Below, piece after piece: positions 2,917-62,945 of a stretch of DNA of 64,000 nt. The translations under genes and the position numbers were made by a program. The notes beneath the pieces are model-generated. The model was given only the letters and a program-made list of their open reading frames with translations, had not been told where the DNA came from and did no database searches. The stretch is taken from the NCBI RefSeq assembly GCF_900116425.1, contig NZ_FPAS01000004.1:62001-126000 (forward strand), read 5' to 3'. Position 1 is the stretch's first letter. Each line of letters starts with the position of its first letter. This DNA is from Lishizhenia tianjinensis. Lineage in GTDB: Bacteria > Bacteroidota > Bacteroidia > Flavobacteriales_D > Crocinitomicaceae.

Positions 2917-2947
2917 AATTAAGAATTGTGAATGAAGAATTAAGAAT
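2917..2947. repeat. Heptanucleotide array on the atpG side of the first IVP gene
   Basis: On the plus strand four contiguous 7-nt units can be read: TTAAGAA (2919-2925), TTGTGAA (2926-2932), TGAAGAA (2933-2939), TTAAGAA (2940-2946). The IVP stop codon lies in the last unit. The reverse complement of the unit TTAAGAA is the unit found on the other side of the gene, so the two arrays form an inverted pair. Confidence 0.8.
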
Positions 2948-3281
2948 TTTTTGAGCTATTAATTATCGCTACCAGTAGTTTAATTAATTGCTCGTTTTCA
3001 TCCTTTAGCTCCTCACTTACCTTTTCTATCTTTAAATCAATAATATTTAACCAATACTTGGTTTCATCTGCTTCTTTCAAAGCTATTTTAAGCTTGTGAA
3101 CAAAATCTTTTCTGCTCTCTGCTCTTTGAGCCTCTACTACATTGGCTCCTATGCTCGTACCACTTCTAAAAAGCTGTTTGGCAAAATCGAAATGGTTTAA
3201 GCTTCTTAAGTGTTCGTAGTAATCAAAAATAGCGAGAGAAAAATCAAATGATTTAGTCACCAATATATTCTCTCTCGCCAT
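2940..3281 (-). CDS. Four-helix-bundle protein, S23/IVP family (inside the atp operon)
   Basis: The protein has 113 residues, close to the usual length of the 23S rRNA intervening-sequence protein family (TIGR02436). Typical features are visible: an N-terminal helix with SFDFSLAIFDYYEHL, then FAKQLFRSGTSIGANVVEAQRAESRKDF, then ALKEADETKYWLNII. These match the family core (R-S-xx-I-xx-N-xx-E-A and the E-T-xx-W-L motif). The gene separates atpA from atpG, although no rRNA is near, so the name IVP is historical. Biochemical function of these stand-alone proteins is unknown; a fold relationship to the Avd protein of diversity-generating retroelements is known. It is flanked on both sides by heptad arrays and its last codons lie inside one of them. 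Confidence 0.92.
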   Translation of the reverse strand: MARENILVTKSFDFSLAIFDYYEHLRSLNHFDFAKQLFRSGTSIGANVVEAQRAESRKDFVHKLKIALKEADETKYWLNIIDLKIEKVSEELKDENEQLIKLLVAIINSSKNS

Positions 3282-3317
3282 TAAATTCTTAATTCAGAAC
3301 TCTTAATTCTTAATTTA
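3282..3317. repeat. Heptanucleotide array on the atpA side of the first IVP gene
   Basis: Plus-strand units are TTCTTAA (3286-3292), TTCAGAA (3293-3299), CTCTTAA (3300-3306) and TTCTTAA (3307-3313). The array fills the whole gap between the atpA stop codon and the IVP start codon. Its unit is the reverse complement of that at 2917-2947. Confidence 0.8.
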
Positions 3318-4892
3318 TTAGTATTTCGAAGCGATCTCTTTCGCTACTGTAGCTAATGTGTCAGTTACTTCGTCAGTTAATTTACCTGCTCTTAAAGTAT
3401 CCAGAACGTCTTGGTGTTTCGCTGATAAGTAATCTAAGTACTCAGTTTCGAAAGCTTTCACTTGGTTCACTGGTACGTTTTGAATCAATCCTTTTGTACC
3501 TACGTAGATGATAGCAATTTGCTTCTCTACTGGGTAAGGATCTCCTTCTTTTTGTTTCAAGATCTCTACGTTTCTTGCTCCTTTATCCAATACCGCTTTA
3601 GTTGCAGCATCTAAGTCAGAACCGAATTTCGCGAAAGCCTCTAATTCTCTGTATTGTGCTTGGTCTAATTTCAAAGTACCTGCTACTTTCTTCATAGACT
3701 TAATCTGAGCGTTACCTCCTACACGTGATACTGAGATACCAACGTTAATCGCTGGACGAATACCAGAGTTGAACAAGTCAGACTCCAAGAAGATCTGTCC
3801 ATCCGTAATAGAAATTACGTTTGTTGGAATGTATGCAGAAACGTCACCCGCTTGTGTTTCGATAATTGGAAGGGCAGTTAAAGATCCTCCTCCTTTTACC
3901 TTACCTTGCAATGAAGCTGGTAAATCGTTCATTTGAGATGCAATTGTATCATCGTTGATGATTTTCGCTGCACGCTCTAATAATCTTGAGTGTAAGTAGA
4001 AAACGTCTCCTGGGTACGCCTCACGTCCTGGAGGACGACGTAATAACAATGATACCTCACGGTAAGCTACCGCTTGCTTAGATAAATCATCAAAAACGAT
4101 TAATCCTGGACGACCTGTATCACGGAAGTACTCTCCAATCGCTGCACCTGATAATGGCGCGAAGTATTGCATTGGAGCTGGGTCAGAAGCGTTTGCTGCT
4201 ACTACAACTGTGTAAGCCATAGCTCCAGCTGCTTCTAATTTATTAACTATACCTGCAACGGTAGAACCTTTTTGTCCAACTGCTACATAAACACAGTAAA
4301 CTGGCTCTCCTTTGTCGTAAAATTCTTTTTGGTTGATGATCGCGTCAATCGCAACAGTTGTTTTACCTGTTTGACGGTCACCAATGATCAACTCACGTTG
4401 TCCACGACCTACTGGGATCATAGCATCTACTGACTTGATACCTGTTTGTAAAGGCTCAGTTACTGGCTCTCTGTAGATAACCCCTGGAGCTTTACGCTCG
4501 ATAGGCATCTCAAATAACTCACCAGTGATTTCACCTTTACCATCGATTGGATTACCCAAAGTATCAACTACACGTCCAACCATACCTTCACCTACCTTGA
4601 TAGATGCGATCTGACCTAAACGTCTTACAGTATCACCTTCTTTTACTTGGCTTGAACGACCAAGAAGTACAGCACCTACGTTGTCCTCTTCCAAGTTCAA
4701 CGCCATACCTCTTAAACCACCATCAAATTCGATAAGTTCACCATATTGAACTCCGTTAAGTCCGTAAATACGTGCGATACCATCACCGATTTGTAGTACA
4801 GTACCTACTTCTTGAAGCTCTGCTTCAGATTTGTGACCTGAAAGCTGTTCTCTTAAAATTGCAGAAACTTCTGCTGGTTTTACATCTGCCAT
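3318..4892 (-). CDS. atpA: F1Fo ATP synthase alpha subunit
   Basis: The 524-residue protein is the non-catalytic nucleotide-binding subunit of the F1 head. The P-loop GDRQTGKT is at residues 171-178. The segment [22 protein letters not shown] is the Walker B region, and [23 protein letters not shown] follows as in all alpha subunits; the C-terminal helical domain is complete. It follows atpH after a 37-bp gap. The catalytic beta subunit (atpD) and epsilon (atpC) are absent from the window; Bacteroidota commonly place them at another locus. Confidence 0.98.
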
Positions 4893-6301: not shown

Positions 6302-7462
6302 TTAATGATGATCTTCAACTGCCATTCCGATGAATAGCGATGACAACATCGTAAAAATGTAGGCCTGTAAGAAGGCTACTAAAAGCTCTATCAATGAAAT
6401 GAACAATGATAAGAACAATGAAATTGCTGTTGATCCTACAGCTCCAAACTGAGCTTTTAAGATTATCGTTAAAGCAATTAACGACATCAATACCATGTGA
6501 CCAGCAGTAATGTTTGCGAACAAACGAATTAATAATGAGAATGGTTTTGTAAACATCCCCAACACCTCGATAGGTGCTAAAACTATCTTCATCGGTACTG
6601 GTACACCAGGCATCCAGAAGATGTGACCCCAGTAGTGCTTGTTACCACTGAATTGTACAATGAAGAAAGTGAATAAGGCTAAACATGCTGTTACTGCGAT
6701 GTTACCTGTAACGTTAAATGCTAAAGGAGTTAAACCTAATAAGTTCAAAATCCAGATGAAGAAGAACACTGTCAATAAGAAACTCATGAACTTTTTGTAG
6801 TGCTTCTCTCCGATGTTAGGACGAGCAATCTCATCTCTAACGTATAATACTAATGGCTCTAAGATTCTTCCAATACCTGTTGGAACTGGACCTCTTTTGT
6901 AGCTTTTCGCTAAAGAACCAAACATCCAAATCATCAACAAACCTGCGATCAACATACCCAATACGTTTTTCGTAATTGAGAAATCGATAGGATGACCTAA
7001 TTCTTCGTGACCTTCAGCGTCTGTCTTAACAATTTTACCGTGTGCTAATTTGAAAAATGCTCCATTGCTTTCTGCAACTGTTTCACCGTGGTGGAACTTA
7101 GAAGACATAAAGAAGTGCATTCCTGTTTCACCATCCCATAAGATAACTGGTAATGGAAATCCGATGTGCGTACCTTTTTCGTTGTCTGAGAATAAAACAA
7201 AATCATGTGCATCCTGCAAGTGGTGTTCTTTGTACGCTTGAATTTCTTCTTGCGTATCTATCATTCCTTCGTACCCGTGACCACCGTGATCTGCATCATG
7301 CTCACCATGTGCTTCTTCGTGCGCCTCGTGTCCTTCTGCGTGTACTGCGTGAGCTTCGTGTTGCCCTTCATGACCGTGTTGCTCATTCGCAAAAGCGAAT
7401 GTTGTACCGATCGTAAACATCAAACCTATAAAAAACCTGACAGAATTTTGTGCTAGTGTCAT
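6302..7462 (-). CDS. atpB: F1Fo ATP synthase a subunit with signal peptide and His-rich N-terminal domain
   Basis: The reading frame extends up to a TTG at 7516, but I place the start at the ATG at 7462 because a strong promoter (7504-7533) lies between the two. The mature part has the usual membrane helices, with the essential Arg in SLLIRLFANITAGH and the conserved end AFLQAYIFTMLSSLFIG. It is about 386 residues, far longer than the E. coli protein. The extra part is a signal peptide (GLMFTIGTTFAFA), then about 45 residues dominated by His, Glu, Gly and Ala, and a periplasmic segment of about 90 residues before the first core helix. The extended form is familiar from Bacteroidota; the His-rich stretch suggests metal or proton binding, which is inference. 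Confidence 0.95.
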   Translation of the reverse strand: MTLAQNSVRFFIGLMFTIGTTFAFANEQHGHEGQHEAHAVHAEGHEAHEEAHGEHDADHGGHGYEGMIDTQEEIQAYKEHHLQDAHDFVLFSDNEKGTHIGFPLPVILWDGETGMHFFMSSKFHHGETVAESNGAFFKLAHGKIVKTDAEGHEELGHPIDFSITKNVLGMLIAGLLMIWMFGSLAKSYKRGPVPTGIGRILEPLVLYVRDEIARPNIGEKHYKKFMSFLLTVFFFIWILNLLGLTPLAFNVTGNIAVTACLALFTFFIVQFSGNKHYWGHIFWMPGVPVPMKIVLAPIEVLGMFTKPFSLLIRLFANITAGHMVLMSLIALTIILKAQFGAVGSTAISLFLSLFISLIELLVAFLQAYIFTMLSSLFIGMAVEDHH

Positions 7463-16363: not shown

Positions 16364-16400
16364 AACTGTTATTCTAAATTCAAAATTCAAAGTTTGGAGT
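16364..16400. repeat. Heptad array between sufC and sufB without a gene
   Basis: Plus-strand units ATTCTAA (16371-16377), ATTCAAA (16378-16384) and ATTCAAA (16385-16391) are contiguous 7-mers like those beside the two IVP genes. They fill the first half of the 85-bp gap. No IVP gene lies beside them. Confidence 0.65.
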
Positions 16401-16448
16401 TTTCCTCCTCCCCTTTAATTCTTCTGATTTTACTACTTAATTTTTTTC

Positions 16449-17894
16449 CTATCCTACTGAGTTCTCTAAAGAAATCGCCAATAATTTTTGCGCTTCTACT
16501 GCGAACTCCATCGGTAACTTGTTCAATACTTCTTTGGCGTAACCATTTACAATTAATGAGATGGCTTTCTCTTCAGAAATACCTCTTTGTAAACAGTAGA
16601 AGATTTGGTCTTCTCCAATTTTAGATGTTGTTGCCTCGTGCTCTATCTTCGCCGTTGGGTTCTTACATTCTATATATGGATAGGTATGCGCTCCTGAAGT
16701 ATCTGTCATCAACAATGAATCACATTGTGAGAAGTTACGTGCGTTCTCCGCATTCTTGTGGATTTGTACCAAACCTCTGTACGAGTTGTGTGAATGTCCA
16801 GAAGAAATACCTTTAGAGATAATTGTACTCTTTGTATTCTTCCCTAAGTGAACCATTTTCGTTCCCGTATCTGCCATTTGGTAGTTATTGGTAACTGCCA
16901 CAGAGTAAAACTCACCTACTGAGTTATCTCCTTTTAAGATACATGATGGGTATTTCCACGTTACTGCAGAACCTGTTTCCACCTGCGTCCAAGAAATTTT
17001 AGAATTAGTGTGACACATTCCACGCTTCGTTACGAAGTTGAAAATTCCACCTTTTCCATCTTTATCTCCAGGGTACCAGTTCTGAACCGTAGAATATTTA
17101 ATTTCTGCATCGTCTAAAGCAATCAATTCAACCACTGCCGCGTGCAACTGGTTCTCATCACGCTGCGGTGCTGTACATCCTTCTAAGTACGATACATACG
17201 CTCCTTCATCTGCAACTACCAAAGTACGCTCAAACTGACCTGTACCTGATTCGTTGATTCTGAAGTAAGTTGATAATTCCATCGGACATCTCACTCCTTT
17301 TGGAATGTAACAGAAAGATCCATCTGTAAACACCGCCGAGTTTAATGCTGCGTAAAAGTTATCTGAAGTAGGAACAACTGTTCCTAAATATTTTTGAACT
17401 AAGTCTGGGTGCTCTTGTACTGCCTCAGAGAAAGACATAAAGATGATACCCAACTCTTTTAATTTCGATTTAAACGAAGTGGCTACAGAAACAGAGTCCA
17501 TTACGAAATCCACTGCAGTACCTGTTAAACGCTGTTGTTCTTCCATAGAAATCCCCAATTTTTTCATGGTTTCTTTCATCTCTGGCTCAACATCGTCCCA
17601 AGATTCGTACTTCTTATTTTGCTTTGGAGCGGAGTAATACGTGATATCCTGAAAATCCGGTTTTTCGTATTTGATGTGCGCCCAATCTGGCTCCACCATG
17701 TTTGTCCAAACCTTGTAGGCATTCAACCTATACTCCAACAACCATTCTGGCTCGTTCTTCTTCGCAGAAATAAAGCGAATGATATCCTCGTTAAGTCCTT
17801 TCGGCGCCTTATCCGATTCAATATTCGTTGTAAACCCGAACTTATATTCCTGGTTCTTTAAATCTTCCGCTAATTCTTCCTCTGTATAGCCCAT
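16449..17894 (-). CDS. sufB: Fe-S cluster assembly scaffold subunit SufB
   Basis: The 481-residue protein is the scaffold subunit of SufBC2D on which the cluster forms. The family segments [17 protein letters not shown]-type (here [15 protein letters not shown]), [10 protein letters not shown] and [21 protein letters not shown] are present, as is [26 protein letters not shown]. Length is normal. It is downstream of an iscA-like gene and the second IVP gene. Confidence 0.98.
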
Positions 17895-17898
17895 TTAA

Positions 17899-17936
17899 AT
17901 TAGTTAATTTGATATTGGAAATTTGAAATTCCCTAT
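17899..17936. repeat. Heptanucleotide array on the sufB side of the second IVP gene
   Basis: Plus-strand units are GTTAATT (17903-17909), TGATATT (17910-17916), GGAAATT (17917-17923) and TGAAATT (17924-17930), each ending ATT. It begins 8 bp before the sufB start codon. The unit is the reverse complement of the array at 18351-18385. Confidence 0.75.
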
Positions 17937-17953
17937 ACCTAATTGTTTATGTA

Positions 17954-18262
17954 TTAATATTTATTTCCTCTGATTTCAGCACCCTTCAAATACTTGATAA
18001 ATCCAGTAATTTGTTTTGATACATCCTCCAGATTAGAAATTAATTCATTCAATAATTCTTCTCCTATGTAGTTTCTATCTTTTGCTCTGTAAACCTGAGA
18101 TTTGCTTTCATACAAAGAGCCTTGTGCATAACTTAAAAACAAGATAAACTCCTTGTTTCCCATACGCCCAAACCCTTCAGCGATGTTATCCATAATTGAA
18201 CCTGAAGCTCTGTTTAATTGATCGTACAAACCAGCGTCGTCTTTAATCCCCGATGTTTGCAT
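17954..18262 (-). CDS. Four-helix-bundle protein, S23/IVP family (inside the suf operon), start codon unclear
   Basis: The frame from the first ATG gives 102 residues with the family core LYDQLNRASGSIMDNIAEGFGRMGNKEFILFLSYAQGSLYESKSQVYRA. The expected N-terminal helix is encoded in frame upstream: residues KLEELQVWRDARVLVAEIYS can be read between 18262 and 18349, but that stretch has no ATG, GTG or TTG before the stop codon at 18350-18352. Either an unusual start codon is used or the start has been lost and the gene is decaying. It is only distantly related to the copy at 2940-3281. Heptad arrays flank it. Confidence 0.85.
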   Translation of the reverse strand: MQTSGIKDDAGLYDQLNRASGSIMDNIAEGFGRMGNKEFILFLSYAQGSLYESKSQVYRAKDRNYIGEELLNELISNLEDVSKQITGFIKYLKGAEIRGNKY

Positions 18263-18350
18263 TACACTATAGATTTCCGCTACTAAAACTCGTGCATCCC
18301 TCCAAACTTGTAACTCTTCTAACTTCGTAAACGTCGCACTCTTTACTCCT

Positions 18351-18385
18351 TAATCAATCTCCAATTTCAAATTTCAAATTTCAAA
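18351..18385. repeat. Heptanucleotide array on the iscA side of the second IVP gene
   Basis: Plus-strand units are TAATCAA (18351-18357), TCTCCAA (18358-18364), then TTTCAAA three times (18365-18385). The array runs up to the stop codon of the iscA-like gene at 18387. It pairs in inverted orientation with the array at 17899-17936. Confidence 0.85.
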
Positions 18386-18386
18386 T

Positions 18387-18710
18387 CTACACAGAAAAGC
18401 TCTCTCCACATCCGCAGGTTCTGTCGGCGTTGGGGTTAGAGAAAATGAATCCCTTTCCGTTTAAGCCGCCAGAAAAATCCAGCGTTGTTCCTATTAGGTA
18501 CAAGTAGCTTTTTTTGTCTACTACTATTTTTATCCCGTTATCTTCAAAGGCCTTGTCGCCCTCTTTATCTTCGTTATCAAAATCTAACTGATACATTAAC
18601 CCAGAGCATCCACCACCTTGAACACCTACACGGATAAAGTACCCGTCTTTGCCGTCTTCAGCCATGAGCTTAAGCGCCTGCTGTTTTGCTGATTCTGTTA
18701 CTTTAATCAT
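18387..18710 (-). CDS. A-type Fe-S carrier (IscA/SufA/ErpA family)
   Basis: The protein has 107 residues from the ATG at 18710 (MIKVTESAKQQALKLMAEDG). The three conserved Cys are present: GGCSGLMYQ and RTCGCGESFSV near the C-terminus. These carriers accept clusters from the SufBCD scaffold and deliver them to apoproteins. It is the first gene of the suf operon. A 27-codon extension upstream has no family similarity and is not included. Confidence 0.95.
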   Translation of the reverse strand: MIKVTESAKQQALKLMAEDGKDGYFIRVGVQGGGCSGLMYQLDFDNEDKEGDKAFEDNGIKIVVDKKSYLYLIGTTLDFSGGLNGKGFIFSNPNADRTCGCGESFSV

Positions 18711-18788
18711 ATCTGTTAATGTTGCTTTCGTTATAAACTTGCTTACCGATTTATTTAGATTTAATTTAAATAGAATCAATAATTGGCG

Positions 18789-18819
18789 CAAAAATACCGA
18801 ATTTACGGTATTGAAACAA
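18789..18819 (-). promoter_or_regulatory. Promoter of the suf operon with embedded palindrome
   Basis: On the minus strand TTG (complement of 18817-18819), 20 nt and TATTTTTG (complement of 18789-18796) resemble the Bacteroidota promoter. The 16-bp inverted repeat TACCGAATTTACGGTA (18795-18810) lies between and touches the -7 element. That is a typical place for a repressor operator, so control by an Fe-S or redox regulator of the Rrf2 type is possible but inferred. Confidence 0.5.
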
Positions 18820-24884: not shown

Positions 24885-24957
24885 TGGCCTATGGTGTAAC
24901 TGGCAACACGTCTGATTTTGGTTCAGAAGAGTCTAGGTTCGAGCCCTAGTAGGCCAA
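24885..24957 (+). tRNA. tRNA-Gln (anticodon UUG)
   Basis: The 73-nt cloverleaf has acceptor arms TGGCCTA / TAGGCCA, a D-arm with GTGTAACTGGCAACAC, and an anticodon stem TCTGA / TCAGA around the loop TTTTGGT, giving anticodon TTG. The T-arm contains GGTTCGAGCC. The CCA end is not encoded. A terminator follows directly. Confidence 0.95.
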
Positions 24958-62751: not shown

Positions 62752-62756
62752 TAGCT

Positions 62757-62845
62757 CAGCTTTAGGGGTATCCTTTATAAATAAGGATTGAGACAAACCC
62801 TCAGAACTTGATGCGGTTGATACCGACGAAAGGAAAAGCAAGGAC
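62757..62845 (+). promoter_or_regulatory. TPP riboswitch (THI element)
   Basis: The conserved TPP-aptamer parts are in order: TTTAGGGGTATCC, a P3-type arm with GGATTGAGAC, then ACCCTCAGAACTTGATGCGGTT and GATACCGACGAAAGGAAAAGCA. The usual CUGAGA block reads TTGAGA. It lies about 100 bp before thiS. Thiamine pyrophosphate binding would lower expression of thiS and thiC, probably by masking translation start, since no strong terminator hairpin is seen. Confidence 0.93.
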
Positions 62846-62945
62846 TCCTCCTCTTTGAGCATCCCCCTCTTTTTCTGTACAAGCTGATTTTAATTTGTTT
62901 TGCTTAACTTGAGCAAGCTTAATTTTTAAGACAGAAGTTTACACA

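Follow-up and report, generated by a model that had tools for sequence, protein, structure and literature searches.

The suf operon of Lishizhenia tianjinensis contains a small IVP gene bracketed by short arrays of 7-nucleotide repeats, an arrangement that raises the question of what the repeats are and what sets their sequence. The gene is an open frame of the minus strand (17954–18349) with an iscA-like gene (18387–18791) on one side and sufB (16449–17894) on the other. The 5′ arm of the element on the gene strand (18355–18386, minus strand) adjoins the iscA-like gene, consists of TTTGAAA-type heptads and has a lag-7 score of 20.0. The 3′ arm (17899–17933, minus strand) adjoins the start of sufB and holds a lag-7 array at 17907–17930. 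Read along the gene strand, TTTGAAA occurs three times upstream and a degenerate inverted complement follows downstream. The inverted match of the 5′ arm to its partner scored 19.6, against a mean of 10.3 for the same flank compared with other loci. The heptads listed in an earlier note on this DNA (TTTCAAA three times, TCTCCAA and TAATCAA on the right; TGAAATT, GGAAATT, TGATATT and GTTAATT on the left) were all present within 17899–18386.

The earlier note also placed an IVP gene between the iscA-like gene and sufB, an assignment borne out by profile matches to TIGR02436 (E = 1.6e-30, 105.5 bits against a cut-off of 24) and PF05635 (E = 3.5e-31, 108 bits against a cut-off of 33.8), which make the product a member of this family of four helix bundle proteins. 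Apart from PF05635, the element had no significant Pfam match and no transposase-like domain. The AlphaFold model (pLDDT 92.7) predicts a four-helix bundle that matches structure 2GSC (E = 1.4e-5, TM up to 0.91), which is reported to be a homopentamer (Lin et al., 2006, as cited in PMC4990558). Two glutamates are invariant among IVPs from 217 loci, and a glutamine, an arginine, a serine and an asparagine are near-invariant. The dN/dS ratios of most close pairs (0.04–0.18; two pairs had too few substitutions for an estimate) point to purifying selection on the IVP. None of ATG, GTG and TTG occurs in the suf frame ahead of helix 1; the earliest in-frame ATG is at 18262, and homologues at the identical site start with ATG. 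Lacking a canonical start before helix 1, this copy may be starting to decay or may use a rare start codon.

We scanned the whole stretch of DNA that was analyzed (64 kb; hereafter, the window) for lag-7 arrays with a score of at least 9.5, using ten dinucleotide shuffles as the control. Only five period-7 arrays were found (2917–2948, 3284–3315, 16371–16402, 17907–17930 and 18355–18386), against 0–2 in each shuffled window (mean 0.3), and lags 5, 6, 10 and 11 gave none in the same scan. Four of the five bracket two IVP genes. The second gene (2940–3282, minus strand; E = 6.3e-27 in the TIGR02436 search of the source genome) lies in the atpA|atpG gap between a 5′ arm of AATTAAG (3284–3315, minus strand) and a 3′ arm of CTTAATT (2917–2948, minus strand), both named on the gene strand, with an inverted match of 20.6 against a mean of 9.4. 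As the earlier note claimed, the heptad differs between the suf and atp loci and the two sides match in inverted orientation within each; chance, which it held to be unlikely, is excluded by the window scan together with the permutation tests described below. The fifth array (16371–16402, minus strand) stands alone in the sufB|sufC gap. Relatives hold an IVP gene in this very gap (L012, L017, L021, L039, L045 and others) and remnants of such elements are known at other loci, so we read the solo array as probably the scar of an IVP element lost from sufB|sufC. Other features of the window include a TPP riboswitch (62754–62851, plus strand; RF00059, 64.8 bits) and a tRNA gene (24885–24957, plus strand; RF00005).

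The source genome has seven IVP genes, identified by a TIGR02436 profile search, and a wider set comprised stretches around IVP genes at 217 loci of Bacteroidota and plasmids. At each locus the upstream flank was compared with the reverse complement of the downstream flank. The same-locus mean for the seven loci was 16.1, with an exact permutation p of 1/5040 (0.0002), the minimum possible; over the 217 loci it was 19.5, against 10.2 between loci (sd 2.4), and none of 5000 permutations came near, these figures not being strict probabilities because the loci are best profile matches and mutually related. At 82% of the 217 loci, the same-locus score exceeded the 95th percentile of the scores in that locus's row. 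The comparison of side-to-side with between-locus matching that the earlier note had proposed thus gave an excess in both sets: paired inverted heptad arms at IVP genes are real and general.

Periodicity in the flanks was confined to lag 7, weakly to lag 8, and to their multiples (44% and 40% of flanks versus 0.2–0.5% of shuffles). The unit is not always seven nucleotides long, as the minor lag-8 peak and some arrays of 8- or 9-nucleotide units attest. Another IVP locus of the source genome (L005, G000:C8) has on one side a long, near-perfect period-9 array, AAATCCCTC, which begins at about position 1825 and has a run of N inside. Arms accompany IVPs on cyanobacterial plasmids (AGGTGAC, GGGAAAA, AGTAGGG, GGGTGTA and AGGAGTC) and, with 8-nucleotide units, on a Gemmatimonadota plasmid. 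A Riemerella plasmid carries an armed copy at the same iscA|IVP|sufB position as the suf element, and all three IVPs on viral contigs are armed (scores 27–34). Four true DGR-Avd loci, in which an RT-like motif adjoins the gene, had no arrays and only background scores (8.6–10.6).

In many bacteria, heptamers are reported to outnumber every other class of long SSR (PMC4679880, PMC4692102), and arrays without an IVP gene exist, both of which would suit arms that are ordinary heptanucleotide microsatellites in intergenic DNA. Such repeats would be expected to decay uniformly and independently of any gene, and the arms do neither: their units show a core/linker contrast and they are tied to IVP genes. 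All but one of the window arrays flank an IVP, the inverted match is locus-specific, the core is constrained in both arms and the DGR-Avd genes have none. We consider the chance that the arms are ordinary microsatellites negligible, and the explanation is refuted for IVP flanks. A separate observation concerns an uncultured Bacteroidales (RUG312, L089), in which very long heptad arrays surround sufB with no IVP gene (2722–2917, 4456–4707 and 6784–6863; for example, ATAAACC over about 160 bp).

The earlier note proposed that the array sequence is set per locus, for example by copying from one side to the other. In mechanistic terms, a local heptad would expand, and template switching or conversion would carry it over to the opposite flank. 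This would produce matched and inverted arms, and the inverted similarity does sometimes extend past the heptads (L032, L045). However, arms at the same site with dissimilar IVPs (less than 45% identical) were at background, with a mean of 7.60 versus 7.39 at different sites, and thus showed no site effect. Arm similarity between different genomes and sites instead followed IVP identity, from 7.4 (below 40%) through 8.2 (40–50%) and 9.7 (50–60%) to 12.0 (60–70%), and pairs at least 50% identical had a mean of 9.94 versus a permuted maximum of 8.34 (2000 permutations). Since similarity rises with IVP identity while the site has no effect, these comparisons assign the heptad to the IVP lineage and not to the site. 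For example, paralogs of one genome at different sites have common heptads (L175/L186, L251/L252 and L194/L195), and AGTCAGG is common to two IVPs that are 63% identical, one from Bacteroidota (L231) and one from a cyanobacterial plasmid (L207). A residue-level search for specificity-determining positions in the IVP gave z-scores within noise.

Copying between the sides fares no better. In 13 close element pairs, 63 arm positions had changed on one side and 18 on both, 5 of the latter in concert; as most changes are one-sided, neither copying nor strict compensation maintains the match. Empty sites have no arrays. Expansion and copying of a local heptad is therefore highly improbable, being largely refuted by the same-site comparison. 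What stands of the earlier interpretation is that the arms are paired, inverted, different from locus to locus and not due to chance; what does not is that they are set per locus or copied between sides. Because the heptads follow the gene and not its landing place, the two together resemble a single, very small mobile unit.

The architecture of the arms is consistent with recognition by a protein. Detected arrays have 4–9 units, most commonly 4–5. When the four best-conserved positions of the unit were chosen in one arm, their agreement in the other arm was 0.875, compared with 0.677 for the linker positions. This core–linker difference (0.198) exceeds that under uniform decay (0.046; maximum of 5000 null values, 0.130) and is symmetric between the two arms. 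The linkers still agree above chance, and unit duplication therefore also contributes. The within-arm core profile was near its null, so only the between-arm test was used. A spaced short core with free linkers, inverted at the two ends, is what the binding sites of a multimer would resemble. As a separate matter, we discarded a strand polarity based on G-rich-first arms; this pattern is symmetric under reverse complement and hence orientation-blind, which makes the count of same versus opposite orientations uninformative.

The arms might instead act in RNA, as an intervening sequence in which they pair in the transcript, the IVP lies in the loop, RNase III cuts the stem and pairing is what selection maintains. 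The predicted RNA fold of the suf element has its two arms paired (z −1.85), and 88 of the 111 IVPs with both neighbors assigned run with both host genes. The IVSs of 23S rRNA are similarly laid out, with complementary termini and excision by RNase III, and tandem GACAGAT heptamers precede the S23p ORF in the helix 45 IVS of Coxiella burnetii 23S rRNA (PMC4990558). The suf element, too, is an ORF bounded by complementary termini, although it is not inside an rRNA gene and there is no rRNA anywhere in the 64-kb window. Of the known systems, the 23S rRNA IVSs come closest to the present elements: they encode a protein of the same family, have terminal inverted repeats flanking the ORF and are similar in size (about 430 nucleotides). 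The present elements differ from them in occupying protein operons and in bearing heptad arms on both sides that follow the IVP lineage.

Pairing as the driving force is nevertheless at odds with the mismatches between arms. An early fraction of G-U over A-C mismatches of 0.566 at 101 loci shrank to 0.536 at 172 loci, with a confidence interval (0.489–0.584) that includes 0.5; this lack of a G-U excess speaks against pairing in RNA as the chief constraint. Furthermore, the arms of close relatives lack compensatory changes, and strong constraint falls on just about four of the seven positions. Two IVPs on cyanobacterial plasmids (L202 and L205) are antisense to both neighbors, yet still have arms. 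An origin of the arms in RNA-level excision is thus, in our estimate, unlikely, though it is the least improbable of the alternatives to a mobile element.

The IVP genes recur in particular intercistronic gaps: fadJ|fadA (21 loci), sufB|sufC (15) and sdhA|sdhB (11). Occupied sdhA|sdhB gaps measure about 440–560 bp, and empty ones in other genomes are mostly 6–54 bp and free of arrays, a few being longer but without an IVP. Intermediate states also occur: L302 has an internal IVP deletion with the arms retained, L327 has arms and a short IVP fragment, and only arm-like sequence is left in L310 and L329. In one genus (L298–L302), every readable sdhA|sdhB gap is occupied by an element or its remains, which belong to several unrelated kinds and lie between host genes that are 87–100% identical near the gap. 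L298 and L299 agree at every one of the last 60 nucleotides of sdhA and of the first 60 of sdhB, yet their IVPs share only about 65% identity and their arms are unrelated. The sequences indicate that one element was replaced by another, by insertion and excision or by local recombination.

Repeated use of the same three gaps, and replacement at a single site whose flanks stay intact, are also what a resident cassette moved by homologous recombination would produce, its arms then being regulatory sites (for autoregulation or transcript insulation) of the IVP or of a host protein. Presence and absence at the same gap and the many other sites that are used speak against such a cassette, as do paralogs of one genome that sit at unrelated sites with common heptads. 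So do the IVPs on viral contigs and those inserted between cas genes, or nrd genes, of cyanobacterial plasmids. We therefore hold a resident cassette to be a poor candidate, less probable still than RNA-level excision.

IVP genes have been reported as cas-associated (PMC3936711; also in a figure legend of PMC10910872). Two plasmid loci resemble these cases: an armed IVP lies between Cas6 and Cas4 in Anabaena sp. 90 (L203, 640–1417) and another between Cas10/Cmr2 and Cmr3 in Picosynechococcus (L208, 950–1379). These copies bear arms of the heptad type, which suggests that 'cas-associated' IVPs are insertions and not parts of the CRISPR machinery.

In our reading, the suf IVP gene and its arms probably form one copy of a miniature mobile element; the arms would serve as the terminal recognition sequences of the element itself and are likely bound by a ring of IVP. 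Such an element consists of an array of about 4–7 heptads, the IVP gene and the same array inverted, each arm presenting a constrained core of about 4 nucleotides every 7 (sometimes 8) nucleotides with freely drifting linkers. An IVP ring would bind the arms with one heptad per protomer and hold both ends together, an attractive correspondence suggested by the homopentamer 2GSC and by arrays mostly of 4–5 units. Binding of the arms would direct insertion into intercistronic gaps, where either a separate enzyme or the IVP, using its invariant Glu and its Asn, Arg and Gln residues, may carry out the cutting and joining. Judging from its position, the inserted IVP would be expressed from the host operon, and decay would leave solo arms such as that at 16371–16402.

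Some results weigh against a mobile element. No transposase-like domain is present in the element, and the source genome has no match to the reverse transcriptase (PF00078) or Y1 transposase (PF01797) profiles, which led us to reject either enzyme acting in trans. Target-site duplications are not convincing: the bases shared at element ends average 4.45 versus 4.21 (p = 0.005), with fuzzy boundaries. Recurrence at sdhA|sdhB, fadJ|fadA and sufB|sufC could partly reflect homologous exchange via the host genes, and the common history of arm and IVP could be plain co-inheritance without binding.

REP/BIME-RAYT and MITE-type elements are small and intergenic, with inverted arms around a gene and solo or ORF-less derivatives. 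The present elements are likewise small, intergenic and built of a gene between inverted arms, with solo derivatives, and they have the terminal inverted repeats of DNA transposons and insertion sequences. They differ in that the genome gave no Y1 transposase match and the element no transposase, in arms that are repeat arrays differing from copy to copy where REP-RAYT systems have imperfect palindromes, and in the lack of a clear target duplication. Homology of PF05635 with Avd has been discussed (PMC10053308), and the IVP shares the fold of DGR bAvd (PF22296; PDB 4DWL and 8UBB; TM 0.7–0.85). However, the bAvd profile did not match the window protein and gave related IVPs 20.2 and 13.7 bits against a cut-off of 40; true Avd genes adjoin an RT and lack heptad arms, and the source genome has no PF00078 RT.

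The 7-nucleotide units are also those of the heptameric SSRs (cyanobacterial STRRs and the repeats of Xanthomonas and Nostoc). Examples are GGGAATC in Xanthomonas and GGGGATT in Nostoc, with 70 close pairs in Xcc that are inverted, as the arms are (PMC4692102); heptamer repeats are known from Beggiatoaceae as well (PMC4679880). The texts of both papers, as searched, make no link to IVPs, and a search of open-access PMC papers gave no report of an IVP–heptad link beyond the Coxiella heptamers.

More tentatively, the elements may be self-specifying, a small ring-forming IVP reading modular heptads, one per protomer, on either side of its gene, with its specificity and the array sequence diversifying together; we consider this conceivable but less likely than mobility itself. 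If so, some of the bacterial heptamer repeats that lack an explanation would be derivatives without an IVP. The results also suggest that a solo heptad array can be what a lost IVP element leaves behind. To our knowledge, no function has been assigned to IVP/S23p proteins in the decades since they were first described. The association described here links these unexplained proteins to the unexplained heptamer repeats and turns the question of IVP function into a direct binding test, with the protein's own arms as the candidate ligands.
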